This document shows positions 16,814 through 34,149 of a stretch of 35,225 nucleotides of DNA, one piece after another. The DNA lies in contig ONJB01000036.1 of the NCBI GenBank assembly GCA_900318015.1, positions 1 through 35,225 of the forward strand. Direction: 5' to 3'. This stretch comes from an uncultured Bacteroidales bacterium. GTDB taxonomy: Bacteria; Bacteroidota; Bacteroidia; Bacteroidales; UBA932. Numbering within the stretch: the stretch's first letter is position 1; each line of letters starts with the position of its first letter. Under the pieces are notes generated by a model. That model worked only from the letters and a program-made list of their open reading frames with translations. It had not been told where the DNA came from and searched no databases. Position numbers and translations under genes: made by a program.

Positions 16814-17684
16814 AGCCGAAGCGGCGGAGCTCCTTGCGGGACTCGCGCCAGTCCGGATCCACTTTCACGAACGTGGAGAGGAAGACCTTCTTCTGGAAGA
16901 AGTCCTCCATCTCCAGGCGGGCCTCGGTGCCCACCTTCTTCAGGGCTGCGCCCTTCTTGCCGATGATGATGCCCTTCTGGGACTCGCGCATCACGTAGAT
17001 GACGGCGCTGATCTCATAGCGCTCTTCGCCCTCGTGGAAGGCCTCGATCTCCACCTGGCAGCTGTAGGGGATCTCCTCGCCGTAGTTGAGGAAGATCTTC
17101 TCCCGCAGGATCTCCGAGGCGAAGAAGCGGAGGTTCTTGTCGGTGAACTGGTCCTTGTCGAACCAGGCCGGGGCTTCCGGAAGACGGCTGGAAACCGCCT
17201 CCAGGATGCTTTCCAGGTTGAACTTCTCCTGGGCCGAGGCAGGGATGATCTCCGCCTTGGGGAGTTTCTCGTGCCACCACTGCATCAGCTCGACGACCTT
17301 CTCCTGCGAGGAGATGTCGATCTTGTTGATCACGAGGACCACGGGGCACTCCACTTTCGCGAGCTTCTCGATGTATGCCTCGTTCTTGTCACCCTTCTCC
17401 ACCGTGTCGGTGACGTACAGGATGATGTCCGCGTCGCCGATGGCGGTGTCCACGAAGTCCAGCATGCTCTGCTGGAGCCGGTAGTTGGGCTTCAGGATGC
17501 CGGGTGTGTCGGAATAGACGATCTGGTAGTCCTCCCCGTTGACGATGCCCATGATGCGGTGGCGCGTGGTCTGCGCCTTCGCGGTCACGATGGACAGCTT
17601 CTCCCCGACGAGCGCGTTCATCAGGGTGGACTTCCCGACGTTCGGGTTGCCGATGATGTTGACGAATCCTGCCTTGTGTGCCAT
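16803..17684 (-). CDS. era: GTPase Era
   Basis: Essential small GTPase that binds the 3' end of 16S rRNA and assists 30S maturation. The 293-residue protein has G1 GNPNVGKST (12-20), G3 DTPG, and G4 NKID. A C-terminal KH domain contains VIYVMRESQKGIIIGKKGAALKKVG split by its GxxG loop. The length matches the family. The start overlaps the stop of the RluB-type gene as TAATG (17684), and parC follows immediately, so rluB-era-parC is one leftward transcription unit. No irregularity seen. Confidence 0.96.
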   Translation of the reverse strand: MAHKAGFVNIIGNPNVGKSTLMNALVGEKLSIVTAKAQTTRHRIMGIVNGEDYQIVYSDTPGILKPNYRLQQSMLDFVDTAIGDADIILYVTDTVEKGDKNEAYIEKLAKVECPVVLVINKIDISSQEKVVELMQWWHEKLPKAEIIPASAQEKFNLESILEAVSSRLPEAPAWFDKDQFTDKNLRFFASEILREKIFLNYGEEIPYSCQVEIEAFHEGEERYEISAVIYVMRESQKGIIIGKKGAALKKVGTEARLEMEDFFQKKVFLSTFVKVDPDWRESRKELRRFGYEF

Positions 17685-18946
17685 TATACGTACGCCCCCA
17701 TCTTCAGGATGTTCACCTCGCCCTCGGTCAGGTAGCGCCAGTCGCCCTTCTTGAGGCCCTTCTTGGTGAGGCCGGCGAAATAGACGCGGTCCAGGGCCTT
17801 CACTTCGTAGCCCATGGACTCGAAGATGCGGCGGACGATCCGGTTCTTGCCGGAGTGGATCTCGATGCCCAGCTGGCGGTGGTCGCGGGCGTCGATGTAC
17901 TCGAGTTCATCGGCGGCGACGACGCCGTCCGTCAGCTCGATGCCGGCGAGCACCTTCTCCTTGTCCTCCTCGGTGAGGGGATGGTCCAGGACGACCTGGT
18001 AGATCTTCTTCTTGTTGTAGGACGGGTGGGTGAGGCGCTCGGCCATCTCGCCGTCGTTGGTGAACATCAGCACGCCGGTGGTGTTCTTGTCCAGGCGGCC
18101 GACCGGGAAGACGCGCGTCGGGCAGCCCTTGAGGATGTCCATGACGGTCTTTTCCGCGTGCGGGTCGCTGGCGGTGGTGACATAGCCCTTGGGCTTGTTC
18201 ATCACGATGTACACCTTCTCCTCGCCCTTGAGACGCTCGCCGTTGAAGCGGATGTCGTCGGTGAGGACGTTGACCTTGGTGCCGAGTTCGGTGACGACCT
18301 CCCCGTTCACGGTGACGACACCGCTCTGGATGAGCGTGTCGGCCTCCCTGCGGGAGCAGACGCCGGAATTGGCGATGTACTTGTTCAGGCGGACGACCTC
18401 CTTGATCGGGGTCTTCGCGGTATCGTCGTCGGACCAGGCGCTGCCGCTCACCTGCGGCTTGCGGCTGAGCATCGCGCTCATGCCGGCGTCGGCCTCTGAA
18501 CGCTTGCCCATGGGCTTGCGGCCGCGGGCCGGGCCCGGCTTCGTGCCGAAGGACGGCTTGCCGTAGCCGGCCTTGCGGGGCTTGTCGCCATACGGCTTCT
18601 CGCCGTAAGGCTTGTCACCGTGCGGCTTGCTGCCGAACGGCTTGCGCTCGCCGTACGGGCGCTCGCCCTGCGGGCGGTCGCCATAAGCGCGGTGCTCACC
18701 CTGCGGGCGGCCCTCGCCGTACGCTTTGTGTTCTCCATAGCTCCGGCGTTCCCCCTGCGGACGGGCCGGACGGGCGCCATAGGCGCGCTGCGGCTGCTGG
18801 TCCGAATCAAAGGAACGGCTGGTGCTGTAATCTTCCCGATGTGGGCGGTATCCGCCTTCGCGGCGGCCGTATTCCACTTTCTCTGCGCGGCCTTCGGCAG
18901 GCCTCCTGGTGAAATGGGTACGTGTACCCTTCTTGTTGTTTTCCAT
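17684..18946 (-). CDS. rluB: RluB/RsuA-family rRNA pseudouridine synthase with a long repetitive basic N-terminus
   Basis: Cytoplasmic pseudouridine synthase; RluB modifies U2605 in 23S rRNA, RsuA modifies 16S rRNA. The C-terminal half has an S4 RNA-binding domain (about 183-240, RLNKYIANSGVCSRREAD) and the synthase domain with catalytic Asp286 in GRLDKNTTG, then THPSYNKKKIYQV. Residues about 1-175 are low-complexity and strongly basic, with repeated PYGEKPYGDKP, PQGEHRAYGDRP and SYGEHKAYGEG units. They resemble the disordered tails on RNA-binding proteins in Bacteroidetes. At 420 residues it is about 170 longer than the catalytic family minimum. The substrate base cannot be decided from sequence; RluB is the usual ortholog. 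Confidence 0.9.
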   Translation of the reverse strand: MENNKKGTRTHFTRRPAEGRAEKVEYGRREGGYRPHREDYSTSRSFDSDQQPQRAYGARPARPQGERRSYGEHKAYGEGRPQGEHRAYGDRPQGERPYGERKPFGSKPHGDKPYGEKPYGDKPRKAGYGKPSFGTKPGPARGRKPMGKRSEADAGMSAMLSRKPQVSGSAWSDDDTAKTPIKEVVRLNKYIANSGVCSRREADTLIQSGVVTVNGEVVTELGTKVNVLTDDIRFNGERLKGEEKVYIVMNKPKGYVTTASDPHAEKTVMDILKGCPTRVFPVGRLDKNTTGVLMFTNDGEMAERLTHPSYNKKKIYQVVLDHPLTEEDKEKVLAGIELTDGVVAADELEYIDARDHRQLGIEIHSGKNRIVRRIFESMGYEVKALDRVYFAGLTKKGLKKGDWRYLTEGEVNILKMGAYV

Positions 18947-18980
18947 TTTTCTTGCCCCTTCACGGGGGTTCTAAAGTGAT

Positions 18981-19004
18981 AAAAATCAATGACTCACGTC
19001 ATTG
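18981..19004 (-). terminator. Rho-independent terminator of the exbB-exbD-tonB operon
   Basis: Read on the minus strand, 25 bp beyond the tonB stop, the sequence forms CAATGAC-GTGA-GTCATTG, a perfect 7-bp stem with a four-base loop, followed by GATTTTTA. It separates tonB from the rluB-era-parC unit downstream. A perfect DnaA-box sequence (TTATCCACA, minus strand) lies beside it at 19005-19013 and is probably coincidental. Confidence 0.7.
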
Positions 19005-19028
19005 TGTGGATAAAGTGTTGCTTTTCTT

Positions 19029-19820
19029 CTACTGCAGTTTGAAGATGTAGGTGATGGTGCCCATCTGGACGGCGGGCGCGTCGGCCTTGGTGTTGAAGTG
19101 GGCCTTCATGGCGGCGTTGCGGGCGGCGTTCCAGAGGCCGGAGTCGGTGACCGTGGTCCCTTCGACGCCCGGAACGGCTTCCGTGACGTTTCCATATTGG
19201 TCCACCTTGACCCGCACGACGACCGTGCCTTCCAGCTGGGCGTTGTAGGTGGGCCGGGGAAGGGTGCCGACCACGTTGCGCCCGCTCAGGTGCGCGTTGG
19301 CGGCTCCCTGAGTGCGGCCTTCCTTCGTGTTGCCGTCCGGCTGGCCGGCCTTGAAGCCTTCACTGGCCTCGGAAGCGCTGTGCGGCGCCGTGGCCTTGTC
19401 GTCCTGCTGGCTCATGCCCGGGAACGAGGCGCGGGGATCCAGCTTCGGCTCCTCCTTCTTCGGGGGCGCGGGAACTTCCACGTCGCCGTGGCCGTTCTCC
19501 TTCGTCGCCGGCGTCCGGTTGGGCCGGTCGTTCACGTGGGGCGACTCCGCCTTCTGCACCAGTTCCACGGGCTTCGTGGGATCCGTCTCCTCCGCCTGCG
19601 GCTGCCGTCCGACCTTGGTGTCGACCGGCTTCTCGTCCTCCAGGACCTCTTCCTCGAAGTCGATGAGGAAGCTGGTCTCCGGCGGCGGGGGATCCAGGTA
19701 CTTCAGCCCCGCGGTCAGGCAGAAGACGAGGGCCACGACGTGGACGAGCACGGTGGCCGCGAGACCCGTCAGGCGGGCCCGCTTGTCCTCAGTCTGTCTG
19801 GAGCGGAGATACGGCTGCAT
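19029..19820 (-). CDS. TonB-family energy transducer
   Basis: Periplasm-spanning protein that couples the ExbB-ExbD proton motor to outer-membrane TonB-dependent transporters. It has 263 residues: a short cytoplasmic head, one transmembrane segment (about 18-41, with the His common in TonB anchors in VLVHVVALVF), and a Pro/Glu/Lys-rich linker (about 45-170). The C-terminal TonB domain covers about 175-263 (RPTYNAQLEGTVVVRVKV to GTITYIFKLQ). Three base pairs separate its start from the exbD stop. It is the last gene of a three-gene operon. The transporter it serves is not in this window. Confidence 0.9.
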   Translation of the reverse strand: MQPYLRSRQTEDKRARLTGLAATVLVHVVALVFCLTAGLKYLDPPPPETSFLIDFEEEVLEDEKPVDTKVGRQPQAEETDPTKPVELVQKAESPHVNDRPNRTPATKENGHGDVEVPAPPKKEEPKLDPRASFPGMSQQDDKATAPHSASEASEGFKAGQPDGNTKEGRTQGAANAHLSGRNVVGTLPRPTYNAQLEGTVVVRVKVDQYGNVTEAVPGVEGTTVTDSGLWNAARNAAMKAHFNTKADAPAVQMGTITYIFKLQ

Positions 19821-19823
19821 CGC

Positions 19824-20234
19824 TTATTCGGGTTGGGTCGCCAGGATGACCTTGTAGTGGTTCCGCTTGGCGATGTTCATGATACCGACGATTTCGCCCA
19901 CGGGGACGCTCTGGTCGGAGAAGATGGAGAAGGTCGGGTCCTCTTCGCCCGAAAGGAGCTCGATGAGCCCGTCCTCCACTTCCTCGTAGGAGGCCGGGTC
20001 CTGGTCTCCGTTGATGTGGTAGGTGTAGGTGTCGTTGCCCCAGTCCTTGATGCTGACGCTCACCGTGGCCTTCGCCCCGATCTGGCCCGTGCTCTTCGGG
20101 AGGAGGAGCTTGAGGGCGTTCGGGTTGATGAGGGTCGAGGTCACGAGGAAGAAGATCAGCAGCAGGAACACGATATCCGTCATCGAGGATACCGAGAACG
20201 ACGCGTCCACCTTCGTGTTTCTCTTGAGTGCCAT
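19824..20234 (-). CDS. exbD: ExbD/TolR-family biopolymer transport protein
   Basis: Proton-channel partner of ExbB. The 136-residue protein has a short N-terminus, then one membrane segment (about 17-37, SSMTDIVFLLLIFFLVTSTL) carrying the conserved channel Asp20. A periplasmic domain follows (about 40-136, with SIFSDQSVPVGEIVGIMNIAK). The length is normal for the family. It lies between exbB and tonB with 3-bp gaps on each side, so the three are surely co-transcribed. By sequence it could equally be called TolR; the adjacent tonB favours ExbD. Confidence 0.92.
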   Translation of the reverse strand: MALKRNTKVDASFSVSSMTDIVFLLLIFFLVTSTLINPNALKLLLPKSTGQIGAKATVSVSIKDWGNDTYTYHINGDQDPASYEEVEDGLIELLSGEEDPTFSIFSDQSVPVGEIVGIMNIAKRNHYKVILATQPE

Positions 20235-20237
20235 AGA

Positions 20238-20960
20238 CTATTCTTCTCCGGGTTCGTGAAGGACGATGTCGATGAACTGCATCGTGGAGCTCTCCATCTT
20301 GTACACCAGGTTGGAGACCTTGGAGGTGAGCCAGTTGTAGCCGAAGTAGGCGATGATGCCCACGACGAGACCGCCCACGGTGGTGAGCATCGCGGTGTAG
20401 ATGCCGTCGCTGAGGAGGGTGATGTCGATGTTGTTGCCGGCCTTGGACATGTTGAAGAAGGCCTTGACCATACCGAGCACGGTGCCGAGGAAACCGATCA
20501 TCGGGGCGCCGCCGGCGATGGAGGCGAGGATCGGGAGACCCTTCTCCAGGCGGGAGACCTCCACGTTGCCGGTGTTCTCGATGGCGGACTGGATGTCGGC
20601 CATCGGACGGCCCAGGCGGTGGATGCCGGTCTCGATCATCCGGGCGACCGGATTGTCATACTTGCGGCACAGGGTGACGGCCGACTTGGTCTTGCCCGCG
20701 TTCATGTAGTCGCGGATGTCGTTCATGAAGTTGCCGTCGATCTTGGAGGCCTTGTTCAGGGTCCACCACTTCCATCCGATGATGTAGATGGCGAGGATCG
20801 AGAGGGCGAGGAGGACCCACATGAGGGGACCGCCCATCGTGAACATCGAGAAGAGACTCTCGCTCATCTGGGTAGGCTGCGCGGCCGGGGTCGCGGCGAC
20901 CTGCTCCAGGGCCTCTCCGGCGGCCTGGACCAGCGTGTCAGTTTGCAAAAGGAAAAGCAT
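20238..20960 (-). CDS. exbB: ExbB/MotA/TolQ proton-channel family protein
   Basis: Inner-membrane proton-channel pentamer subunit of the TonB energising complex. The 240-residue protein has three predicted membrane segments: about 44-65 (LMWVLLALSILAIYIIGWKWW), about 145-170 (ILASIAGGAPMIGFLGTVLGMV, the family signature) and about 192-215 (TTVGGLVVGIIAYFGYNWL). An N-terminal stretch rich in Ala, Gln and Thr precedes the first. It is the first gene of the exbB-exbD-tonB operon and diverges from the TPR-AraC regulator across an 87-bp gap with a promoter box on each strand. Confidence 0.92.
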   Translation of the reverse strand: MLFLLQTDTLVQAAGEALEQVAATPAAQPTQMSESLFSMFTMGGPLMWVLLALSILAIYIIGWKWWTLNKASKIDGNFMNDIRDYMNAGKTKSAVTLCRKYDNPVARMIETGIHRLGRPMADIQSAIENTGNVEVSRLEKGLPILASIAGGAPMIGFLGTVLGMVKAFFNMSKAGNNIDITLLSDGIYTAMLTTVGGLVVGIIAYFGYNWLTSKVSNLVYKMESSTMQFIDIVLHEPGEE

Positions 20961-20996
20961 ATCGTTTAACTGTTTTGTTCCAATTCTTTCAACCTA

Positions 20997-21004
20997 CAAA
21001 GGTA
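20997..21004 (-). promoter_or_regulatory. Probable -7 box of the exbB operon
   Basis: The minus strand reads TACCTTTG, matching TAnnTTTG, 36 bp upstream of the exbB ATG at 20960. No clear -33 TTG is seen at the usual spacing. Confidence 0.55.
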
Positions 21005-21018
21005 CAAATAATTTTTCG

Positions 21019-21026
21019 TATCTTTG
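21019..21026 (+). promoter_or_regulatory. Probable -7 box of the TPR-AraC regulator gene
   Basis: TATCTTTG matches TAnnTTTG and ends 21 bp before the ATG at 21048. The TGCTAA repeats found at the two downstream promoters are absent here, so the regulator is not obviously autoregulated through that site. Confidence 0.6.
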
Positions 21027-21047
21027 CGTTGAGAAAACCGTGCCGCA

Positions 21048-22712
21048 ATGAAAAAACTGTTGTCCGCATTCCTTTTCTGGATTCTTCTTTCCGTTACCGC
21101 CTGGGCCGGTCCGGTGGAGGACGCCGTCGCCGCCTTCGACAAGAACCCGACCGAGGCCCATGCCGCCGCGTTCTTCGCCCTGCTCCAGCAGGAGGAGTAC
21201 ACGGATGAGCCCGTCGTCTTCGCGCCGGGAACCCCGATGGAGGAGATCTCCGCCCATGTCTGGTACTGGGCCGGTGACTGGTATTACAACCTGCAGGACT
21301 ATCCCAACGCCGTGAAATACGCGGAAAAGTCGCTGCCGGTCATCCCCGAAGGGGACGACGCCGAGCTGCTCAAGGCGGACTGCCTGAACCTCCTCGCCAT
21401 GGGCTATGTCCGGCTGTCGGATTTCGCCAAGGCCGCGGATTACGCCCGGCAGTGCTACGTGCTGGACGAGAAGTCCGGCGATGCGGACCGCATCAGTTCG
21501 TCCCTGAACACGATCGCCGGCATCTACATGGCCGGTGACCAGCCGGAGGAAGGGGAGAAATATATCCTCCGGGCGCTTGAGTACGCCGCCAAGGCCGACA
21601 ATCCGCCTCGCATGGCCGTCCTGCACGGGATGGCCTCCGAGATCTTCCACGCCGAAGGCAAGGACGAGGAAGCGCTGAAATATGCCGATATGGCCTTCGA
21701 GGAAGAGAAGGCGCTCGGGCGGGAGTACCAGGCAGCCGTGCGGCTCACGCAGAAGGCGTCCGCCCTCATCGGCCTGAACCGCTGGGATGAGGCGGAAGCC
21801 CTGCTCGAGAAGGTGATCCCTTACTTCAAGGCCGTGGGCGACGTCCACTCCCAGGGCATCGCCGACAACAAGATGGGCATGACCGTCATGGCCCTCAAGC
21901 GCTATGACGATGCAATCCCGTACTACCGGGAAGCGGCCGACATCTTCGCCGCCATCCAGGACCCCTACAACGAGATCCAGGCGCGCCGGGGCCTGTACGA
22001 GTGCCTCTGGCGGACGGATCGGAAAAAGGAGGCCAACGACGAATTCTACCGCTACAACGACCTCCGCGATTCATTATATAAGGTAGCATCGGCCGAATCC
22101 CTCGCCAAGTACGACGCCGAGTTCGGCAACGACTGGCTGCGCCTGGAGAACCACGCCGAGCGGCAGGCCCGGATCCGGATCACCCTCATCGCCCTCGCCG
22201 TCGCCCTTCTCGCCGTCCTTGTGTGGTGGCTGATGCATCGCCGCAACCGCCGCCAGGCGAAGATCAACGACGAGCTCAACGAGAACATCCGCGACCTCCG
22301 CGAGAAGTACAGCCAGCTCCACATCCACTACGACAACGCCATGCTCACGAACAAGGCCCCGCAGGACGAGGCCGTGGACATGCCCCAGGCGCACCGGGAA
22401 TTCCTGGAGCAGACGGTGGATATCATCAACGAGCTTTTCTCCAAGGAATCCGTCAGCGTGGAGACGATTTCCCAGCGGATGAACATGAGCCCCTACCAGT
22501 TCCGTCAGCGCCTGCAGAGCATCACCGGCGAGACGCCGCAATCCTTCATCCAGACCGTCCGCATGCGCCGCGCCCGCTACCTGCTGGACAACCATCCGGA
22601 GCTCAACATCAGTGAAGTTTCGCGACTCTGTGCCTACGGAGACGTCCCCAGCTTTACGCGCGCTTTCAAGAATGCCTTCGGAATGACACCGAGCAAATAT
22701 CTGGGCAGATAG
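21048..22712 (+). CDS. Membrane-spanning TPR-AraC family transcriptional regulator
   Basis: A one-piece sensor-regulator of 554 residues. It has an N-terminal signal/anchor (1-20), then a periplasmic region of TPR-like helical repeats (about 20-340; NLLAMGYVRLSDFAKAADYARQ, ADNKMGMTVMALKRYDDAIPYY). A membrane segment follows (about 376-397, ITLIALAVALLAVLVWWLM), a short coiled coil, and a C-terminal AraC-type double helix-turn-helix (about 455-554; VETISQRMNMSPYQFRQRL, ISEVSRLCAYGDVPSFTRAF, GMTPSKYL). Such proteins read a periplasmic cue and bind DNA from the membrane. It lies directly upstream of two surface-protein units whose promoters share a 21-bp-spaced direct repeat, so these are its probable targets. 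A hairpin terminator follows it. Confidence 0.9.
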   Translation: MKKLLSAFLFWILLSVTAWAGPVEDAVAAFDKNPTEAHAAAFFALLQQEEYTDEPVVFAPGTPMEEISAHVWYWAGDWYYNLQDYPNAVKYAEKSLPVIPEGDDAELLKADCLNLLAMGYVRLSDFAKAADYARQCYVLDEKSGDADRISSSLNTIAGIYMAGDQPEEGEKYILRALEYAAKADNPPRMAVLHGMASEIFHAEGKDEEALKYADMAFEEEKALGREYQAAVRLTQKASALIGLNRWDEAEALLEKVIPYFKAVGDVHSQGIADNKMGMTVMALKRYDDAIPYYREAADIFAAIQDPYNEIQARRGLYECLWRTDRKKEANDEFYRYNDLRDSLYKVASAESLAKYDAEFGNDWLRLENHAERQARIRITLIALAVALLAVLVWWLMHRRNRRQAKINDELNENIRDLREKYSQLHIHYDNAMLTNKAPQDEAVDMPQAHREFLEQTVDIINELFSKESVSVETISQRMNMSPYQFRQRLQSITGETPQSFIQTVRMRRARYLLDNHPELNISEVSRLCAYGDVPSFTRAFKNAFGMTPSKYLGR

Positions 22713-22729
22713 GCTCATATTTTACGAAA

Positions 22730-22786
22730 TGCTAAAATAATTTGACGGGGTGCTAACAAGCGCCCCGTTTTTGGTCGTTAACTTTG
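22730..22786 (+). promoter_or_regulatory. AraC-type operator and promoter of the BspA-like unit
   Basis: Two direct repeats of TGCTAA start at 22730 and 22751, 21 bp apart; the extended half-site resembles TTTgACGAAATGCTAAAA. The -7 box TAACTTTG starts at 22779, 28 bp after the second repeat. The same spacings, 21 and 28, are found at 28186-28242. AraC-family proteins typically bind pairs of direct repeats about 21 bp apart next to polymerase. The second repeat overlaps the terminator of the regulator gene. Confidence 0.72.
22745..22772 (+). terminator. Rho-independent terminator of the TPR-AraC regulator gene
   Basis: ACGGGGTGC-TAACAA-GCGCCCCGT forms a 9-bp stem (one G-T pair) followed by TTTTT, 33 bp after the regulator's stop codon. 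The ascending arm and loop contain the second TGCTAA repeat of the downstream operator, so one sequence serves both. Confidence 0.8.
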
Positions 22787-22811
22787 CTTTTGGTTAAATG
22801 TACCCTTACCC

Positions 22812-22964
22812 ATGGAGAAAACCGACGAGCAGGAAAAGGCGACCAACTTCGCGTTGAAGTACCTCGAGCACCTCATCGAAAAGGAGCTCGAGGCCTCCGA
22901 ATCCACCCCCACCCCCTCCACCGGCAAGGACGATCCCAAGAAGAAAAATCAAACGAAAAAATAG
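22812..22964 (+). CDS. Small protein of unknown function (50 residues)
   Basis: First ORF after the regulated promoter, ATG at 22812 to TAG at 22964. The protein begins MEKTDEQEKATNFALKYLEH and ends in a Ser/Thr/Pro and then Lys-rich tail (DPKKKNQTKK). The first 28 residues look like one amphipathic, highly charged helix. There is no signal peptide or membrane segment, so it is probably cytoplasmic. It is separated by only a few bases from the next small ORF and its ATG falls at a natural leader distance from the -7 box, which supports it being real. I do not recognise a family. Confidence 0.55.
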   Translation: MEKTDEQEKATNFALKYLEHLIEKELEASESTPTPSTGKDDPKKKNQTKK

Positions 22965-22971
22965 GATGACT

Positions 22972-23124
22972 ATGGAAAAGCAAACTTATGTCGCGCCCGT
23001 AAGCGAGGCAGTCTACGTCAGAATGGAGATGAACATCATGTCCGGTGGAGGCAATAATGGAGGCTATAATGGTGATACGCCTCAGGGCGAAGGATCCGAA
23101 TTTGGTGGTAATGTTTTCCCTTGA
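22972..23124 (+). CDS. Small glycine-rich-tailed peptide (50 residues)
   Basis: Begins MEKQTYVAPVSEAVYVRMEM and ends in a Gly/Asn-rich tail (SGGGNNGGYNGD ... EFGGNVFP). I chose the ATG at 22972 because an AGGA lies 5 bases upstream; another in-frame ATG is at 22966. The layout is a short charged head, then YxAPxxE, then a hydrophobic-charged stretch, then a Gly-rich tail. It recalls small ORFs that I have seen beside surface-protein genes in Bacteroidales and that have no assigned role. No signal peptide and no double-Gly leader cut site of the usual kind is visible. The lipoprotein gene starts 17 bp downstream. Confidence 0.6.
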   Translation: MEKQTYVAPVSEAVYVRMEMNIMSGGGNNGGYNGDTPQGEGSEFGGNVFP

Positions 23125-23141
23125 CTTTAATCTCTAACGAT

Positions 23142-26100
23142 ATGAAAACGCAACGTTTTTTTATTTCAGCGCTCTTGGGGGTTGTTTGCTTAACGGCTTG
23201 TTCTGTCCATGAAATGGATGATGATAAACCGCTTGCGAAAGCACCCAAGGCAGGAGATGTACTGACTTTCAACGCCAGGATTGAAGGGGAGAATCCCAAA
23301 ACACGGACCACGGCAGTGGCGAGCGGGAATAGTTTCCAGCATTGGTGGAGTCCCGGTGATGCCATCAATGTATTTTATGGCGTTTCGGAAGGATACGGAG
23401 CGGAATTTGGAACGGACCTGGAACAGGCCAGCCAAACGGCTACCTTCACAGGTTTACTCGGAGCCTTTTCCGGAGTAACGGAGGGAGGTGATGCCCTGGC
23501 ACAGAATGAATTCTGGGCGACATATCCTTTTTCCGAGAACAACAGTTGTGACGGCTCCAGCGTAACGGTGACAATGCCGGCGCAGCAGATTGCCCCTGCC
23601 GGTTCCTGGGATCCGGCATCCGATCTCTATGTTGCAAAGTCGAAAGGTCTGGACCTGTTTTTTTATCTGGTTGGAACCAGTATCCGTTTTTCTGTCACAA
23701 CCGATGATATCGCCAAAGTCGAGTTCAAGTCGTACGGCCCGGATCCCAAACCATTGGCTGGTACGGTCAGAGTCGCCTTTGACGAAAACCATGAACCATA
23801 TGTCACGGCAGTTGTTGAGGGCACTTCTTCCAATGTCATCTCGGTAACACCGAAAGACGGCATCCATTTTGTTCCGAACGAAGTGTATTTCTTCAATTTC
23901 CTTCCCGGAACTCTTGACCATGGTTTTTCTGTTACATACTATAATGATGACGGTGTTTCTAAAAGCATAGGTTCTTCGAATAGCAAAGAATTCAAGAGGA
24001 AGGAGTACCAGAATATGCTTGGCGTCGATGATGGTCTGTCCTTCGATATCCCTGGCAATGAAATCCGATACAAGACAACGGATAATCAGCCTTTGACCTG
24101 GCCGTCGGATTCTGAATTCCATACTTATGTATCCACCGAAGGGGATGATGGATGGTTTATTCTGAAGATCAGTGCAGATGAAGATGTTCCCTACAATGAG
24201 ATCGTGCCGGCAGGTCTTTTCACGAATAAGACCACGCTGAAGAGTGTCATTGTTCCAGCTTCGGCAGCGGAAATCGGCGTCTCTGCTTTCGAAGGATGTA
24301 CTTCCCTGACACGTGTCGCTTTTACGGGAGGTGATCCCTGTTTCTACGACCGTGCGTTCTATGGTTGTACGTCCATGACATCCTTTGATTTCCCGGACGG
24401 ATGGTATTTCAAGACCAACGATCCCACAACGGTATTTGGCGACACCCCCTTGGTCTGTGTATCTGGCGAAAATACGTCCTCGGACGGGCATGCTGTCGTT
24501 ATTAACGGCGAAATGGTGTACTTCGCTGGCGCCGGATTGACGTCTTACACGATCCCTTCCGAAGTCACCAAGATAGGCTCCAAGGTTTTCCAGAACAACA
24601 CGGATCTAACATCCCTTGTCATCCCGGAGGGCGTCACTGAAATCGGAGCATCTGCGATGGAAGGGATGACCGGCCTCACCAAGCTGACTCTTCCGGCCGG
24701 GCTGACCTCGATCGGTTCCAATGCGTTCAGGGGTTGTGCCAATTTGACCGAGATCCGGATCGAGGAAGCAGACACACCTCCTACCTTGAATGGAGATGAC
24801 CAATTCGACGGATCGACCTGCAGTATCTATGTCCCCTTAGGAACCCTTGCCGATTATAAGACGCAATGGAGTGATTACGAGAGACGCATCTTTGAAATTG
24901 ATAATCTCTATGTGATCAGGTACACCACGACGGATGGTGTCGCGATTAGTCCGACCGTTACAAATGGTTTCGGAGCAGGGTGGGGTAATGCCGACACCTA
25001 TGGCGAATGGAAATTCCACGGGCCGATAACGGCCATTCCGGCGGGTGCTTTTGCGAGCAAGACAACGCTCGCCTCGATTGAAATACCTGACTCCGTCGAA
25101 TCGATAGGAGCAGCAGAAAATTCACACATAAACCCCTTCTATGGATGTAGCGGATTGACGAAATTTACGGGGAAATTTGCTTCTGCAGATGGTAAAGCGT
25201 TGATTTCGGATGGCGGTGTGCTGCTCGCCGTCGCCCCGGCGGGACTTGATTCCTATACGGTTATGGAAGGAATCACGACCATCGGAGGCGCAGCGTTCCG
25301 GAATTGTAGCATTCCGACGATTACGCTTCCGTCGACACTGACCAAAATCGAGTGGCAGGCGTTCCAGAATTGCGGAGCCTACGAACTGACGATTCCTGAA
25401 TCCGTGACTGAAATCGAGCCTATCCGTACTTTTAGCGGCTCCCGCCTGCTCAGTGTCCGTTTCCTGAATCCTGAGCCGGTGATGCCGTACGTAATAACGG
25501 GTAGGGGCAATATTTTCGCGGATACTCCCAGTTGGGCCATCATCGTTCCTGACGGCTGTCAGGACGTCTACCAGAGTTCCTGGAGCCTTTTCGGGAGCAT
25601 GATTGTCCCGGAATCGGCCGTCCTATACTACCAGACCTCTGACCAAGAAGTGGTGAACGTCTCTCCGCGCGCCGGGGAGGATCTGGAAGATTTGGGATAT
25701 TCGGTTGTCAAGACCGGATATAATCCAATGAAAGACCAGGGGCTGATTGCTTTCAATAAACCTTTGAGAATGGTCACGAGTGAGTTGTTCCGTAAGGATG
25801 TTGTTTCGGGTTACGATCCGTCTAACATCACGTCATTGACACTTCCGTCGCAACTGACCATCATCAATACTGGTTTGTCCGATCTTTCCGGACTCACGTC
25901 GCTGACCATTCCGGAGTCCGTCAATACAATCTATAAATATGCTTTCAAGAATTGTAGCAGTCTTACAGATTTCGGAGGCCCTCTTGCGTCCGCGGACAAG
26001 CGTTGTATCATTCGGGACAATAAGGTGATTGCGTTCCTCTCCAACGGATTGACCAGTTATACTTTCCCGGAGGGCGTTGAAGATATCGAATGCAGCGTCG

Positions 26101-28016
26101 GTAATGACAACCTCCTTGAATCGATCACCTTCCCGGAAGGAGTGCGGATCATCGGGGCTAGTTTCAGTGAATCGGCCCATCTTACGACAATCCGCTTCCC
26201 GAAAAGCCTCACCAACATAGGTGCGGATGTATTCAGAGGGTGCACGGCCTTGACGTCGGTGACCCTTCCGAAGAATATCCGTTGGATTGGAATGGGCGCA
26301 TTCTGGCATTGTACGGGTCTTCAGGAGATTGTCCTTCAGGGAACTACGCCTCCCGGGGTTGGGGACAAGGCCCTGGATGGAAATAACGACGACCCCAACT
26401 ATCCAGATGATTATGAATCCAATTGCCCGATTTATGTTCCGACTGCCCTTGTGGAGGAATACAAGGAAGCATTACCTTATTATAAGGATCGGATTGACGG
26501 TGTAGGAACGGCAATCGTCGCGAAGTTCGTGTCCAATTATAGATTCGCTTCGAATGAGGCCTTCAGTTCCAGCAATGATGCTAGATACCTCAGAGATAAT
26601 AGTCATATTGATGGTTTTACTTATGACCCAGACAAGAATGAACTGACGGTGACCTATGCGTCCAAAGTCAATTCGTTCGACGCATCCCTATTTTATGGCT
26701 TTGATTCCAAAATCTACAAACTTACCCTTCCTTCCGAAATCAATACGTTCGGGCCTGCCGCTTTCAGCGGAATGAGTTCGCTCGAGACGATCGATTCCCC
26801 TTACAGTCCGGATCAAAAGGGTATCGTGGACGAAACACATACCTTGGTGGCAGTCGTTCCTACTGTTACCGACTATCACGTCCCGAGTTCAGGCCGGGTG
26901 GCCTATGCGGTTGGTAAAGAGGTTTTCAAGGAGCTTTACGGATTGACTCATGTTTCATTGCATTCCGGCGTTACCTCTATCGGGGAATATGCGTTCTCGA
27001 AAAGTGGGCTCACGGGGACGGTTGATCTTTCTTGCGTAACTGAACTGGGAGAAGGAGCGTTCTCTTTATGCCAGAGTCTGAAGAAGGTCATTTTTAACAA
27101 TGATTTACGTGAGTTTAGTAAAAATGTATTTTCTGGTTGTTTTTCATTGGAATCTGTAACTTGTTCGGGTATCGCGGGAGTGGAAAAGATTGATGACGAT
27201 GCTTTTTCTACTTGTCCTTCCCTTAAAACCTTATCGGGAGCCATCTTGGCGGTCAAGCCGTTCTATATTGGAGAGAATGCCTTCCGCTACTGTGGTTCCT
27301 TGACGACTATCGATCTTCAGTATGCAAGCCATATCGGGAGAGGCGCATTCGAAGCTTGCCGTAATTTGAGCGATATCAGAGGTTTCAGTGAGGAGTTGAC
27401 GAGAATCGAAGATAGAACATTTAGTGGGACCGCCCTGACTGAAATCGATCTCCCTATACTCGTTACGTTCATCGGACAGCGTGCTTTCTTTGATTGTCGC
27501 AATCTTCGTCAAGTGAATCTTTCTCTCAATGTTTCCACCGTAGGGGATGAAGCCTTTGCGGAGTGTTCCAATTTGCTCACGTGTACTTTCGCGCCATGGT
27601 TAAATGTATTGGATCTCGGAAGGGCTGCCTTTAAGAATTGTAGGAGTATGACGAGCATTGTTTTCCCGCCCCATATCAAAAAGCTGAGTGAAGAGGTGTT
27701 CTACGGCTGTTCTTCACTGTTGACTCTTACGATTCCTCAGGTGGAATCTATAGAAAGATATGCTTTTGCTTTTTGCAGTAAGTTGACGGATATTACGATT
27801 CGCGGTGTCGAGACTGTTATTCAGGGCTTTGCGTTTGGAAACTGTGATCAATTGAAACATCTCCGTTTGTATGGGGAGGCTCCGCAATTAATTGAATATG
27901 GTGGATTGTTAACTGTGGATAGTTATTACGAGATCCACGTACAGAAAAGGTATGCTGACAGTTATTATATACATTGGGATTCTGTATTACACACCCGCAT
28001 TGTCGCGGACCTCTAG
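23142..28016 (+). CDS. Large surface lipoprotein: fimbrillin-like N-terminus and BspA-type leucine-rich repeats
   Basis: A 1624-residue predicted lipoprotein. Start chosen at MKTQRFFISALLG because it gives a proper signal with lipobox LTAC (Cys20); the acidic residues just after it (SVHEMDDD) fit a Bacteroidetes surface-export signal. Residues about 40-310 resemble fimbrillin-type N-terminal domains (FNARIEGENPKTRT, WWSPGDAINVFYG). From about 330 to the end there are many LRR_5/BspA repeats of the pattern F.xCxxLTxIxxPxxVxxIGxxAF. Linker segments of the type IYVPLGTLADYK occur near 561 and 1096. BspA-like proteins bind host proteins or other cells; the partner here is unknown. Base composition is clearly more AT-rich than the neighbours, most so in the last 1 kb, which suggests separate ancestry. 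No T9SS tail is seen. Confidence 0.88.
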   Translation: MKTQRFFISALLGVVCLTACSVHEMDDDKPLAKAPKAGDVLTFNARIEGENPKTRTTAVASGNSFQHWWSPGDAINVFYGVSEGYGAEFGTDLEQASQTATFTGLLGAFSGVTEGGDALAQNEFWATYPFSENNSCDGSSVTVTMPAQQIAPAGSWDPASDLYVAKSKGLDLFFYLVGTSIRFSVTTDDIAKVEFKSYGPDPKPLAGTVRVAFDENHEPYVTAVVEGTSSNVISVTPKDGIHFVPNEVYFFNFLPGTLDHGFSVTYYNDDGVSKSIGSSNSKEFKRKEYQNMLGVDDGLSFDIPGNEIRYKTTDNQPLTWPSDSEFHTYVSTEGDDGWFILKISADEDVPYNEIVPAGLFTNKTTLKSVIVPASAAEIGVSAFEGCTSLTRVAFTGGDPCFYDRAFYGCTSMTSFDFPDGWYFKTNDPTTVFGDTPLVCVSGENTSSDGHAVVINGEMVYFAGAGLTSYTIPSEVTKIGSKVFQNNTDLTSLVIPEGVTEIGASAMEGMTGLTKLTLPAGLTSIGSNAFRGCANLTEIRIEEADTPPTLNGDDQFDGSTCSIYVPLGTLADYKTQWSDYERRIFEIDNLYVIRYTTTDGVAISPTVTNGFGAGWGNADTYGEWKFHGPITAIPAGAFASKTTLASIEIPDSVESIGAAENSHINPFYGCSGLTKFTGKFASADGKALISDGGVLLAVAPAGLDSYTVMEGITTIGGAAFRNCSIPTITLPSTLTKIEWQAFQNCGAYELTIPESVTEIEPIRTFSGSRLLSVRFLNPEPVMPYVITGRGNIFADTPSWAIIVPDGCQDVYQSSWSLFGSMIVPESAVLYYQTSDQEVVNVSPRAGEDLEDLGYSVVKTGYNPMKDQGLIAFNKPLRMVTSELFRKDVVSGYDPSNITSLTLPSQLTIINTGLSDLSGLTSLTIPESVNTIYKYAFKNCSSLTDFGGPLASADKRCIIRDNKVIAFLSNGLTSYTFPEGVEDIECSVGNDNLLESITFPEGVRIIGASFSESAHLTTIRFPKSLTNIGADVFRGCTALTSVTLPKNIRWIGMGAFWHCTGLQEIVLQGTTPPGVGDKALDGNNDDPNYPDDYESNCPIYVPTALVEEYKEALPYYKDRIDGVGTAIVAKFVSNYRFASNEAFSSSNDARYLRDNSHIDGFTYDPDKNELTVTYASKVNSFDASLFYGFDSKIYKLTLPSEINTFGPAAFSGMSSLETIDSPYSPDQKGIVDETHTLVAVVPTVTDYHVPSSGRVAYAVGKEVFKELYGLTHVSLHSGVTSIGEYAFSKSGLTGTVDLSCVTELGEGAFSLCQSLKKVIFNNDLREFSKNVFSGCFSLESVTCSGIAGVEKIDDDAFSTCPSLKTLSGAILAVKPFYIGENAFRYCGSLTTIDLQYASHIGRGAFEACRNLSDIRGFSEELTRIEDRTFSGTALTEIDLPILVTFIGQRAFFDCRNLRQVNLSLNVSTVGDEAFAECSNLLTCTFAPWLNVLDLGRAAFKNCRSMTSIVFPPHIKKLSEEVFYGCSSLLTLTIPQVESIERYAFAFCSKLTDITIRGVETVIQGFAFGNCDQLKHLRLYGEAPQLIEYGGLLTVDSYYEIHVQKRYADSYYIHWDSVLHTRIVADL

Positions 28017-28040
28017 GCTTTGGCGGAATAATCCTTATCA

Positions 28041-28074
28041 AGAAACCCGACTCGGCAAGAGCCGGGTTTCTTTT
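28041..28074 (+). terminator. Rho-independent terminator of the BspA-like unit
   Basis: AGAAACCCGACTC-GGCAA-GAGCCGGGTTTCT forms a 13-bp stem with one mismatch, then TTT. It lies 24 bp after the TAG of the lipoprotein gene. Confidence 0.85.
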
Positions 28075-28086
28075 CTCTCCCGTTTC

Positions 28087-28117
28087 CCCGGCCGGCCGCG
28101 AAAAGCAGCCGGCCGGG
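28087..28117. repeat. Perfect GC-rich hairpin in the gap between the two surface-protein units
   Basis: CCCGGCCGGC and GCCGGCCGGG form a perfect 10-bp inverted repeat around an 11-base loop. No T-run follows on either strand, so it is not a classic terminator. It lies 13 bp after the terminator and about 70 bp before the AraC-type operator. It could be a second transcription barrier; its function is unknown. Confidence 0.6.
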
Positions 28118-28185
28118 TTGCCATTTCCACAAATCTGCCGATTCCTGCGAGATACGATGCATTTTTGTGCAGGGTTTATGAAAGA

Positions 28186-28242
28186 TGCTAAAAGTTTTTG
28201 ACGAAATGCTAAAAAGATTCGTTTAGGGGCGTTGTATCTTTG
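28186..28242 (+). promoter_or_regulatory. AraC-type operator and promoter of the M64 peptidase gene
   Basis: Direct repeats of TGCTAA start at 28186 and 28207 (21 bp apart), each within ATGCTAAAA. The -7 box TATCTTTG starts at 28235, 28 bp after the second repeat. Both distances are identical to those of the promoter at 22730-22786, although the flanking sequence differs. The second half-site occupies the place of the missing -33 element, as expected for activation by a regulator that contacts polymerase. Confidence 0.75.
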
Positions 28243-28269
28243 CATTAAGTGAAATCAACCTTGATGCAT

Positions 28270-31200
28270 ATGAAACGCTTTTCTTTGCCTCTGCTGGCCT
28301 TGGCGCTCTGCCTTTTCGGTTGCACGCCCAAGGAAAACCCGACGCCTACTCCGACTCCGGACCCGAAACCGGATCCGCCTACGGAGCAGGTTGTCCCGGC
28401 CAAAGTCACCCTGAATGAAACGTCCGTGTCCCTCACGGGCGAGGGGAGCAAGGTCGTCACCTTTACCTCTGCGACGGACTGGAAGGCGGCCGTCGCCAGC
28501 GGCGGGTCGTCCTGGCTGACCGTGAGTCCCACCTCCGGCAGCGCCGGAACCACCTCCGTCACCGTCAAGGCGAAGGCGAACCCCACCTATGACGACCGCG
28601 AGACGACCTTCACGATCACGGGCACCGGCAAGGACGGGTCCACATCGACGGGAACGGTCCATGTCACCCAGGCCGCGACGCTGGGTATGGTCGTGGAACA
28701 GAAGGCGTTCGATGCCCCTGCGGCCGGCGGCACGGTGACGGTGAAGGTCAAGGCCAACACCGACTACACCTATACCATCGACGCATCCGGCCAGGGCTGG
28801 ATCACGGAAACCACCACCCGCGCTCTCACGGAATACGTGCACACCTTCAAGGTCGATGCGAACGACCGGTACGACTCCCGTCAGGGCACCATCACCTTCC
28901 AGAACACGAAGACGGGGGAGACGGACCAGGTGACCATCACCCAGGGCGCCCTCCTGGGCATGATCGTGGAGCAAAAGGCCTTCGAGGTCGCCGAGACGGG
29001 CGGTTCCATCACGGTGACGGTGAAAGCGAACACCGAGTACGATTACGTCATCTCCGAGTCCTGCAAGGAGTGGATCACCGAATCCACCACCCGTGGCCTG
29101 ACGGAGTACACGCACACCTTCAAGATCGCCCCGAACGACCAGTACGACGAACGCATCGGCGTCATCACCTTCCGGGATACGAAGACCGGCGCGACGGAGG
29201 AAGTGCAGGTCAAGCAGGCCTCGAAGGGGGGCATTTCCCCGGAGTTCGAGGCGGAACGGGCGGCGCTCATGGCCATCTTCAATGCCCTGGACGGGCCGAA
29301 TTGGGAATCCCACGAGTACTGGGGTACGGAAGCGCCGGTCACTTGGTGGCCGAATATCCTGTGTGACGAGGACGGCCATGTCGTTTCTCTGAATCTGAAC
29401 GACCCTGGAATCAAGGGAAGCCTTCCTCCGGAGATCGGGAATCTGCCCTATCTGACGGACCTGAATATGGGAGGCCCTTATGTCGACTGTCATTTCACCG
29501 GCTCCCTGCCGGAAGAGATCGGGAATCTGACAAACCTGAAACGTTTGCAGATGGACAATTGTCCGTTCGAAGGCCGGTTGCCGGAATCCCTCGGGAATCT
29601 GTCGAATCTGGAATGGCTGTATATCGCGCGCTGCGAAAAACTGGCCCCGAGTCCGATCCCGTCCTGGATCGGGAATCTGACGAAGTTGAAGCTCATCCAG
29701 ATCTACGGACACAATTTTACCGGCCAGTTGCCGGAATCCATCGGGAATTTGACCAACCTGGAGCATCTGGATATCAAATACTGCTCACTGGACAGTACCG
29801 TTCCGGCTTCTTTCGGGAACTTGAGGAACCTCAAATTCCTCCGGCTGTCCGAGAACGGCAACCTGCACGGACCGATCCCTGTGTCATTGTCCAATCTCCC
29901 GGAATGGTGGCGTCTCTGGCCCGGTGTCGTTTACGGGAACAGATTCTCCCAGCAGGACATCGTCGATTCCAACCTTCCTGCGCCGAAGGGGCAGAAACTG
30001 ATTGCCAGTGACGGAAGCACCCTCGACCTGGATGCCGTCCTCTCCGGGAACAAATATACGTTGCTCCACGCGTGGGACATCGAATTCCCGAATTGTCTCG
30101 ATTTCATGCAGACTCTCCGCAATTACTACAAGCAGTTGCCTTCCGGAGAATTGTCTGTCTTCGGATTGATGAGTTCCAATCAGCTGGAAAGCGCCCAGGC
30201 CCAGGAAGAATACAATCAGGCGAAGGGCATTTACGCCCAATATGACATTCCTTGGAAGCAGGTCTTTGACGAGGTTTATTCGTACAACCGTCCTTTCGGA
30301 GATGAGTATGGGGACTCCTGTTATCCCTACGGAAGCATCAATGAAGTGGTTCTGTTCAAGGGAGACAAGGTGGTCAGAACTTCCCTTGCGACGGGCATTC
30401 CCAACGACTGTCTCACGTATCTCGCGGATGAGTACGACCTGACGCTGAAGTTCTACGAGTCCACGGACTACTCCCAGGATGGGAAGGTGGAGATGCTCCA
30501 GACTGCAAAGGAAGGGAACGGAATCGACCTGGTCGTGATGGGTGACGGTTTTTCCGACCGGCTGATTGCCGACGGAACCTACCGAAAGACCATGGTCGAT
30601 GCGATGGAGGGCTTCTTCTCGGTAGAGCCGTTCGCCTCGTTCCGAAACCTGTTCAATGTCTATATGGTCACAGCCGTGTCCAAGAACGAGGAATTCTCCA
30701 TCGGCACCGAAACAGCCTTGGCGGGTTACTTCAACGCGACGGGGACTGCGTGTAACGGTTCGATTGCCACCGTCCAGGAATATGCGCGGAAGGCTGTCGA
30801 CGAGACTCGCCTCCAGAATGCGACCTGCCTGGCCATTCTCAACAAGGAGATGCCGGCCGGATATGCCTATATGCTCGATCCGGAAGCGGAGAACGATTAC
30901 GGCTGCGGTACCGGTATCGCCTTCGTAGCCCTCGGAGCTGGCTCGTTCATCGGTTTCGGCGACAATACCATGGCCGAGATCATCCACCATGAGGGCGGCG
31001 GCCATGCCTTCGGCAAACTGGCCGACGAATACTACTACGATTTCAACGGGCCGGTGTCCCAGGATGGTCTGGATTACCTGCACCAGGTGGAGAAATACGG
31101 CTGGTACAAGAATATCGATAGCGAATCCTCCCCGACGGCCGTCAAGTGGGCGAAGTTCCTCGCCGATCCGCGCTACGCCGGTGAACACCTCGGTGTGTAC

Positions 31201-31389
31201 GAAGGTGCGGCCCTGTGCATCTCCGGCCTGTATCGCCCGACCGAGGACAGTATCATGTTCACGAACAAGGGCCAGTACAACGCCCCGTCCCGCGAAGCCA
31301 TCTACTACCGTATCCACAAGCTGGCCTACGGAGCCTCCTGGAAATACGACTACGAGACCTTCGTCTCCTGGGACGCGAAGAACCGGTAA
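28270..31389 (+). CDS. Surface lipoprotein with BACON domains, leucine-rich repeats, thioredoxin-like region and M64 metallopeptidase domain
   Basis: A 1039-residue predicted lipoprotein (start MKRFSLPLLALAL, lipobox Cys18, then a Pro/Thr linker). Order: a BACON domain (about 40-136); two further BACON-like repeats (about 138-226 and 229-318) that are clearly copies of each other (VEQKAF, WITE, LTEY.HTFK, TKTG); leucine-rich repeats of the LPEEIGNLTNL type (about 360-550). Then a region with TlpA/thioredoxin-like pattern but no CxxC (about 570-730); and an M64 domain (about 740-1039; DLVVMGDGFSD). The zinc site reads HEGGGH (907-912) followed by LADEY (917-921). M64 includes an IgA-cleaving protease, but the substrate here is unknown. 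An alternative ATG is at 28264. Transcribed from its own AraC-type promoter. Confidence 0.88.
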   Translation: MKRFSLPLLALALCLFGCTPKENPTPTPTPDPKPDPPTEQVVPAKVTLNETSVSLTGEGSKVVTFTSATDWKAAVASGGSSWLTVSPTSGSAGTTSVTVKAKANPTYDDRETTFTITGTGKDGSTSTGTVHVTQAATLGMVVEQKAFDAPAAGGTVTVKVKANTDYTYTIDASGQGWITETTTRALTEYVHTFKVDANDRYDSRQGTITFQNTKTGETDQVTITQGALLGMIVEQKAFEVAETGGSITVTVKANTEYDYVISESCKEWITESTTRGLTEYTHTFKIAPNDQYDERIGVITFRDTKTGATEEVQVKQASKGGISPEFEAERAALMAIFNALDGPNWESHEYWGTEAPVTWWPNILCDEDGHVVSLNLNDPGIKGSLPPEIGNLPYLTDLNMGGPYVDCHFTGSLPEEIGNLTNLKRLQMDNCPFEGRLPESLGNLSNLEWLYIARCEKLAPSPIPSWIGNLTKLKLIQIYGHNFTGQLPESIGNLTNLEHLDIKYCSLDSTVPASFGNLRNLKFLRLSENGNLHGPIPVSLSNLPEWWRLWPGVVYGNRFSQQDIVDSNLPAPKGQKLIASDGSTLDLDAVLSGNKYTLLHAWDIEFPNCLDFMQTLRNYYKQLPSGELSVFGLMSSNQLESAQAQEEYNQAKGIYAQYDIPWKQVFDEVYSYNRPFGDEYGDSCYPYGSINEVVLFKGDKVVRTSLATGIPNDCLTYLADEYDLTLKFYESTDYSQDGKVEMLQTAKEGNGIDLVVMGDGFSDRLIADGTYRKTMVDAMEGFFSVEPFASFRNLFNVYMVTAVSKNEEFSIGTETALAGYFNATGTACNGSIATVQEYARKAVDETRLQNATCLAILNKEMPAGYAYMLDPEAENDYGCGTGIAFVALGAGSFIGFGDNTMAEIIHHEGGGHAFGKLADEYYYDFNGPVSQDGLDYLHQVEKYGWYKNIDSESSPTAVKWAKFLADPRYAGEHLGVYEGAALCISGLYRPTEDSIMFTNKGQYNAPSREAIYYRIHKLAYGASWKYDYETFVSWDAKNR

Positions 31390-31405
31390 AAGTGAATGGG
31401 TATCT

Positions 31406-31443
31406 TGGATCCTACAGCTGCCGCTGGCTGGCTGTGGGATCCA
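31406..31443. repeat. Long inverted repeat between convergent genes
   Basis: TGGATCCTACAGC and GCTGTGGGATCCA form a 13-bp stem with one mismatch around a 12-base loop. The repeat covers the last codons of the minus-strand DUF3237-like gene, starting 17 bp after the M64 peptidase stop. It may stop transcription from the left, but no T-run follows. Confidence 0.55.
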
Positions 31444-31927
31444 GGCCGGCCGGCGGGCAGTAGATCCGGATCGTCAGGCCGCCGGCGCTGAAGTCGAGCT
31501 GGCCGAGGAGGGTGGCTGTGTTCAGGAAGGAGAGGGCCTTGCTGTCCGTGACGATGAACGGGTGCGTGAAGGGCTCGCGCATGTCGCCGTTGTTCTCGAT
31601 GAAAATATGGCAGTCGGCGCCGGTCAGGTCCTTGCCCACCAGCATGTAGCGGGCGGACAGCGTCCGGCCGGAAGGCTTGCCCACCTGGGTGTCGACCCCG
31701 GTCGGGAGCACCTCGCCCTTGAAATTGGCGCAGTCCACGCTGCCGGCGAAGGGAATCATGGTCACGGACACGGAATCGGCCATCACGGTCTGGGCGCCTT
31801 TGATGTCGATCTGGATGGTGAGCACTTCCTGGTAGCCGGGAGGGACTTCCGGCCTACGGAGAGGGCCCTGGGCGAGGGCGCAAGCGCACAGCGCGGCGAG
31901 CGCAAGAGAAACAATCAGTCTTTTCAT
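31412..31927 (-). CDS. Secreted DUF3237-like protein
   Basis: A 171-residue protein with a Sec signal peptide (MKRLIVSLALAALCACALAQ, cleavage near residue 20). The mature part resembles the DUF3237 pattern of a small beta-barrel: LTIQIDIKGAQ, an IPFAGSVDCANFKGEVLPTGVDTQ segment (where the family has a Gly-rich G.VLPGGADW-type turn), SARYMLVGKDLTGADCHIFIENNG, and TATLLGQ. It lacks a free lipobox, since no L-x-G-C precedes the cleavage site. It begins 11 bp after the uvrD stop and is the last gene of that leftward unit. Function unknown; family membership is moderately sure. Confidence 0.75.
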   Translation of the reverse strand: MKRLIVSLALAALCACALAQGPLRRPEVPPGYQEVLTIQIDIKGAQTVMADSVSVTMIPFAGSVDCANFKGEVLPTGVDTQVGKPSGRTLSARYMLVGKDLTGADCHIFIENNGDMREPFTHPFIVTDSKALSFLNTATLLGQLDFSAGGLTIRIYCPPAGLDPTASQRQL

Positions 31928-31938
31928 AATCTTGGATT

Positions 31939-34119: not shown

Positions 34120-34122
34120 GTC

Positions 34123-34149
34123 GTCATTCCCGGCTTGACCGGGAATCTC
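34123..34149. repeat. Single palindromic unit between pncA and uvrD
   Basis: A 27-bp unit with 7-bp perfect arms (TTCCCGG and CCGGGAA) and a five-base loop. It is identical base for base to the unit at 3393-3419 within murE and five substitutions from the aroK unit. It fills the gap almost exactly: one end touches the pncA TAG, the other is 3 bp from the uvrD ATG. The partner B unit is absent here. Confidence 0.85.

Follow-up and report, generated by a model that had tools for sequence, protein, structure and literature searches.

We describe a 554-aa protein encoded on a 35,225-nucleotide stretch of DNA from an uncultured Bacteroidales bacterium (GTDB lineage ending in UBA932; GenBank assembly GCA_900318015.1, contig ONJB01000036.1), here called the window, which is contig C38 of a 3.2-Mb genome. 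The protein joins a tetratricopeptide repeat (TPR) array to an AraC-type DNA-binding domain and is, with a probability that we put at about 0.85, a one-component trans-envelope activator whose operators lie in front of two neighbouring units of surface protein genes. Read directly from sequence are its domains, the operators with their geometry, a co-variation between operators and DNA-binding domain, and a regulon content that recurs. We infer the topology, the binding, activation in preference to repression, and the cue, as follows: the TPR array would be periplasmic and sense what is probably a protein or peptide cue, a single helix would span the inner membrane, and the cytoplasmic AraC-type domain would bind two 21-bp direct repeats. 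The cue would alter the TPR array, the cytoplasmic domains would pair on the repeats, and both units would be switched on, namely small open reading frames (ORFs) with a fimbrillin/BspA adhesin (unit 1) and an M64 peptidase (unit 2).

The regulator gene (21048..22712, + strand) encodes a signal peptide, the TPR array, a transmembrane helix at residues ~378-396 and an AraC-type helix-turn-helix (HTH) at residues 475-552. The TPR families and HTH_18 (PF12833, 1.6e-20, 73.6 bits, cut-off 33.6) were matched using Pfam; the signal peptide and single transmembrane helix were assigned by eye, and these place the TPR array on the predicted periplasmic side. The Pfam scan returned TPR-type and HTH families only, with no histidine kinase or receiver family, and the closest solved DNA-binding domain is that of a hybrid two-component protein (12aw, E 6.5e-13). 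Elsewhere in the genome, twelve places match the regulator, in each case within residues 378-554 and never in the TPR part; open frames of 977-1399 aa contain seven of the twelve. A -7-like box of the regulator's own promoter was read from the sequence at 21019..21026 (+, TATCTTTG), and a search of the window found no TGCTAA pair before that promoter.

Operator 1 (22720..22761, +; read from the sequence and by pair search) consists of two 21-bp units, TTTTACGAAATGCTAAAATAA and TTTGACGGGGTGCTAACAAGC, and operator 2 (28176..28217, +) of two 21-bp units around TGCTAA at 28186 and 28207, the second of which is TTTGACGAAATGCTAAAAAGA; the full repeat is the 21-bp unit TTTnACGAAATGCTAAAA. At both operators a TAnnTTTG box begins 28 bp past the start of the second TGCTAA, and pattern matching places it at 22779..22786 (TAACTTTG) for unit 1 and at 28235..28242 (TATCTTTG) for unit 2, both on the + strand. 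The half-sites and both spacings are kept between the two operators while the sequence from half-site to box has diverged. The pattern TGCTAA-N15-TGCTAA-N22-TAnnTTTG matches the window with zero mismatches at 22730-22786 and 28186-28242, and two matches at three or fewer mismatches were reached by 0/100 window shuffles. The bare TGCTAA pair, at two or fewer mismatches, has three matches in the window (0.47 expected), a count equalled in 1/100 shuffles. Across the whole genome, the pair with the common inner TTGACG, a pattern derived from the same two window sites, matched those two sites only at three or fewer mismatches (reversed control, 1+1). A preliminary description of this DNA had proposed a membrane-anchored TPR-AraC regulator and TGCTAA pairs 21 bp apart at 22730/22751 and 28186/28207 with a box at 28 bp. 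The regulator is borne out by the Pfam families and the by-eye signal peptide and membrane helix, the positions are exact, and the genome-wide scan shows that the full pattern is not scattered; the repeat is real and its 21-bp spacing stands, but its unit is longer than described.

The Bacteroides fragilis promoter consensus has TAnnTTTG at -7 and TTTG near -33, according to the available text of PMC7366714. Counted from this consensus, the last base of the second half-site falls at about -34, adjoining the -33 region, and a bound protein should therefore meet RNA polymerase. Behind operator 1 follow small ORF 1 (22812..22964, 50 aa), small ORF 2 (22966..23124, 52 aa; a leader with Y..P and a strain-variable tail) and a lipoprotein adhesin (23142..28016, 1624 aa) with BspA-type LRR_5 repeats and a start that looks fimbrillin-like by eye and is unsupported by Pfam and by a PDB search. 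Behind operator 2 lies a 1041-aa lipoprotein (28264..31389) with BACON repeats, LRR and Peptidase_M64. All four genes are on the + strand.

Near-identical regulators occur in two named Bacteroidales records, RUG253 and RGIG3197, and the goat reticulum label of the latter indicates that the window is probably of rumen origin. Operator 1 is kept in both of these 97-99% orthologues and both operators are kept in RUG253. RGIG3197 has operator 1 only, and its match to the window resumes at 31937, ~60 bp beyond its adhesin gene; RGIG3197 therefore lacks both the M64 gene and operator 2 at this place. Genomes G176 and G283 encode regulators that are 63% identical to that of the window, over the full length and in the DNA-binding domain alike, and each has two sites (4/4 with N15 and N22), the first half of the upstream one reading TGTCAA. 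In eight genomes the extended pattern has seven matches, all within 2.5 kb of a TPR-AraC gene, and at three or fewer mismatches it has none in three of the eight, all of which are without the regulator (E <= 1e-30).

Regulon content was read through in G176, the G283 contig ending before its second unit does. Site 1 of G176 precedes a small ORF and a lipoprotein whose match to LRR_5 stays below the cut-off; site 2 precedes a 51-aa ORF, a 43-aa ORF, a lipoprotein that looks fimbrillin-like by eye and has no Pfam family, and a BACON-M64 protein. The 51-aa ORF, first of this second operon, resembles small ORF 1 (52% over 25 residues) and the 43-aa ORF resembles small ORF 2; the peptidase lies inside the operon behind site 2, and the gene order differs from that of the window. 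The regulon put forward in the preliminary description (small ORFs, fimbrillin/BspA-type lipoproteins and an M64 peptidase) thus recurs with the same content in G176, and conservation of the repeats and their spacing in relatives that keep the regulator holds in the 97-99% and 63% orthologues. The TGCTAA sequence itself is kept within this closest group, but regulators that are 27-43% identical carry other repeat sequences. Related bacteria appear, from these comparisons, to keep the layout while the repeat sequence or the controlled surface protein changes.

Beyond the closest group, half-site similarity tracks DNA-binding-domain identity across 15 loci (r = 0.82, p = 0.0002; half-sites chosen by hand), compared with r values of 0.17 (p 0.05), 0.27 (p 0.01) and 0.07 (p 0.23) for three neighbouring stretches. 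The spacing was surveyed at 18 of 26 TPR-AraC loci, leaving out the near copies L045, L061, L124, L129, L137, L139 and L140 and the broken L141. The 36 unselected flanks, upstream and downstream of the 18 regulators, were scored for the best 16-base repeat match at spacings of 12 to 40, resulting in a mean of 10.61/16 at spacing 21 versus 8.77 (SD 0.33) at other spacings; eleven flanks score at least 12 at spacing 21, and at most three do so at any other. Spacing 21 is best in 14 of 18 regions picked after inspection, and in 13 of these 18 a box on the proposed target's strand begins 37-41 bp from where the second repeat starts (10 strict TAnnTTTG and three relaxed, at L046, L131 and L132), a strict box being found at that distance for 1.1% of positions in such flanks. 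A relaxed group-B operator pattern, written from these sites, finds the regulator site in 6/6 genomes and also 15 other places (22 for the reversed control), and the exact pattern has two matches only, both at regulators. In family f74 a similar weak 21-bp repeat lies upstream of the regulator gene itself (L136, L137, and L135 by eye); it is weak against shuffles (16-17 of 200) and hints at autoregulation.

Several results weigh against this reading. Exact TGCTAA pairs number three genome-wide and two in the reversed-pattern control; the bare pair is therefore not rare, and its count was dropped as proof. The third exact pair lies on contig C35, within a 21-bp tandem repeat of a 525-codon open frame. 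Because two of the flank correlations have p values of 0.05 and 0.01, shared descent plays some part in the co-variation. The proposed operators account for eight of the eleven flanks scoring at least 12, those downstream of L127, L136 and L143 not being among them. In 55 control regions from the same loci, which were not deliberately filtered for operator 2 or the second G176 site, spacing 21 is also mildly raised (9.24 versus 8.62, SD 0.41), a rise that coding periodicity may explain. The 18 inspected regions, and the strand at divergent genes, were chosen after looking. Four of the 18 (L130, L134, L135 upstream and L136 downstream) have no box at 37-41 bp on the target strand; in the box survey operator 2 came out in a different register (31 bp), and measured from TGCTAA it has 28 bp like operator 1. 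On the side of the regulator, L048, L127 and L130 have a further box at a distance of 55-56 bp. Many of the single repeats do poorly against 200 shuffles: L046 (22/200), L130 (30/200), L136 upstream (17/200), L135 downstream (11/200), L131 (7/200) and L127 upstream (6/200); downstream of the L134 regulator the direct repeat is spaced 32 bp (14/16 matches) and not 21, and no convincing site was found at L142 and L143.

Three other explanations of the operators were considered. Another AraC-type regulator of the genome could bind the repeats, with the TPR-AraC neighbour being coincidental; the twelve other matches to residues 378-554, seven in long frames, supply candidates, and hybrid two-component system (HTCS) proteins use 21-bp direct repeats, as the accessible part of PMC3878776 reports. 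This is improbable, however, in that all seven extended-pattern matches in the eight genomes adjoin a TPR-AraC gene and the half-site sequence follows the DNA-binding domain of that adjacent protein. It is still less credible that the matching sites are duplicated promoter sequence unlinked to the regulator. Both precede lipoprotein genes, lie 5.5 kb apart and could have arisen by a single duplication, but half-sites and both spacings stayed while the sequence from half-site to box diverged, the elements recur in the 63% relatives before other genes, and the repeats co-vary with the regulator far more than the flanks do.

The regulator might also repress both units through these same sites, the second half-site abutting the -33 region, where a bound protein could block polymerase. 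We consider this unlikely, though less so than the two explanations above: there is no TTTG near -33 at site 1, which suggests activator dependence, and the position of the sites is that of AraC-type activation.

By blastn, the window and RUG253 are 97.3% identical over 15001-23042 (15001 being the query start, so that the left limit of this stretch is set by the query) and 96.8% identical over 28151-32743. Between these flanks lies a strain-variable cassette (23043..28150, +) in which blastn finds no match longer than 100 bases at E <= 1e-5, the best short match being 50 bases at 76%. The cassette consists of the small-ORF 2 tail and the whole adhesin; its left edge falls within small ORF 2, past the leader, and its right edge ~25 bp ahead of operator 2's first unit. 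The adhesins of the window, RUG253 and RGIG3197 (1624, 1645 and 1668 aa, respectively) all carry BspA-type LRR_5 repeats and are full-length homologues, with identities of 34% (window/RUG253), 36% (window/RGIG3197) and 37% (RUG253/RGIG3197). The sharp edges would be better explained by exchange of diverged alleles than by mutation in place, and the locus looks like a fixed expression site in which the adhesin allele is swapped between strains while the regulator and operators stay. This comparison rests on three strains, as RUG253 equals G148 over 15 kb and a single contig underlies both L045 and L062. A search for a further copy of the small-ORF leader, as a possible recombination donor, gave nothing beyond matches of 14-20 bases (E 1.08 or worse). 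Complete exchange of a fimbrillin allele, a parallel to the exchange proposed here, is described for Porphyromonas gingivalis fimA in the available text of PMC3953592; that exchange was shown experimentally, whereas the one here is deduced from three genomes, its putative edges falling within the small-ORF leader and shortly before operator 2. Past unit 2, a UvrD-like helicase (31939-34311) is convergent with the M64 gene and has many matches to GajB models, as expected for a UvrD helicase.

Members of the small-ORF family were located at 22966-23124 of the window, L054:3415-3630, L056:3697-3834, L052:8558-8689 and L049:14268-14408, and the Y..P of the small ORF 2 family is invariant in ten aligned members. 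With a leave-one-out profile, the true ORF was the best or second-best match of its locus in 10/10, with weak scores for five (E 41, 2.9, 0.024, 0.011 and 0.0087). No Pfam or NCBIfam family passed its cut-off for these peptides (seven scanned against each). The profile matches 293 of 400 genomes of the genus at E <= 0.01 versus at least 15 nearly full-length TPR-AraC proteins in the 400, and a role of the small ORFs as specific TPR-AraC partners was rejected on these counts; the window's own genome has one copy by profile at E <= 5. Matches lie beside a TPR histidine kinase in three of six loci and beside a TPR-LuxR protein in one of three (sensor types confirmed by HATPase_c and GerE). Thirteen further TPR-AraC loci were scanned, and a match to the profile was found in L133 only, with 0/5 in the f74 loci among them. 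At two TPR histidine kinase loci a lipoprotein follows, with an inverted repeat in the promoter seen by eye; the FimS-like L054 and L056 share, between kinase and small ORF, the element GGGACATACATAAAAATATGTATTTACT with an inverted repeat by eye.

Because TPR sensors with AraC, histidine kinase and LuxR-type outputs can adjoin the same 40-60 aa family, the small ORFs may be the cue. This is a speculative and rather doubtful proposal, under which the TPR array would read the conserved leader, or its disappearance once consumed in adhesin assembly, and expression would follow the state of export of the adhesin that happens to be installed at the site. RRNPP peptide receptors are cytoplasmic TPR proteins that bind a peptide from a neighbouring small ORF. 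Here, too, a small ORF adjoins the regulator, but the regulator looks membrane-anchored and the small-ORF tails differ among 97-99% identical regulators.

At least 15 nearly full-length TPR-AraC proteins occur across the 400 same-genus genomes, and a survey of 392 genomes from the order gives at least seven, besides that of the window's genome, in six genomes belonging to a single other family (f74), with some weaker or partial matches elsewhere; these counts are minimum values because three candidates were scored per genome. L141 (G667:C5:277133-279247) is a TPR-AraC gene apparently broken into pieces, with an internal stop codon. Open frames of 943-1040 aa on G142:C5, G728:C31, G499:C28 and also G672:C63 and C46 give matches to the TPR portion of the profile. 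For G142, G728 and G499 there is, on the same contig, an AraC match within an equally long frame, and these are possible TPR-HTCS hybrids.

Escherichia coli AraC has the direct-repeat half-sites araI1-I2, likewise 21 bp apart by the promoter, but it is a soluble protein that binds arabinose. TIGR04094 (regulator adjacent to YSIRK surface antigens), alike by model name alone in being an AraC-type regulator beside a surface protein gene, matches the AraC part only (E 1.6e-10, below cut-off). Bacteroides HTCS proteins, as far as the available text of PMC3878776 describes them, share the AraC-type DNA-binding domain and direct repeats averaging 21 bp between tandem sites; their regulons are mostly local and motif similarity generally tracks the DNA-binding domain. 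Unlike them, the window regulator has no histidine kinase or receiver domain and its sensor is a TPR array, and its proposed targets are adhesins, a peptidase and small ORFs in place of polysaccharide utilisation genes (PMC3878776). FimS of P. gingivalis is, according to the accessible part of PMC11053733, a periplasmic TPR sensor that controls fimbriae as a histidine kinase acting through FimR. The TPR sensor, if periplasmic here as predicted, would be alike, but sensor and DNA-binding domain are one protein in the window regulator; residues 175-413 match the NCBIfam FimS model (5.2e-8) at a score far short of the cut-off. The regulator belongs to neither HTCS nor FimS because it is without kinase and receiver domains. 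It would join FimS-like sensing to HTCS-like operators in one protein, a new combination of known parts. No description of TPR-AraC one-component regulators was found in the open-access literature searched (most subscription papers lie outside it), including the available portions of PMC3878776, PMC10434189 and PMC2955634. For a class of Bacteroidales regulators these results give a testable operator rule, in which the second 21-bp copy starts ~38 bp before TAnnTTTG with the regulon behind it, and they point to a locus with a conserved control region and a surface adhesin that would be swapped between close relatives.

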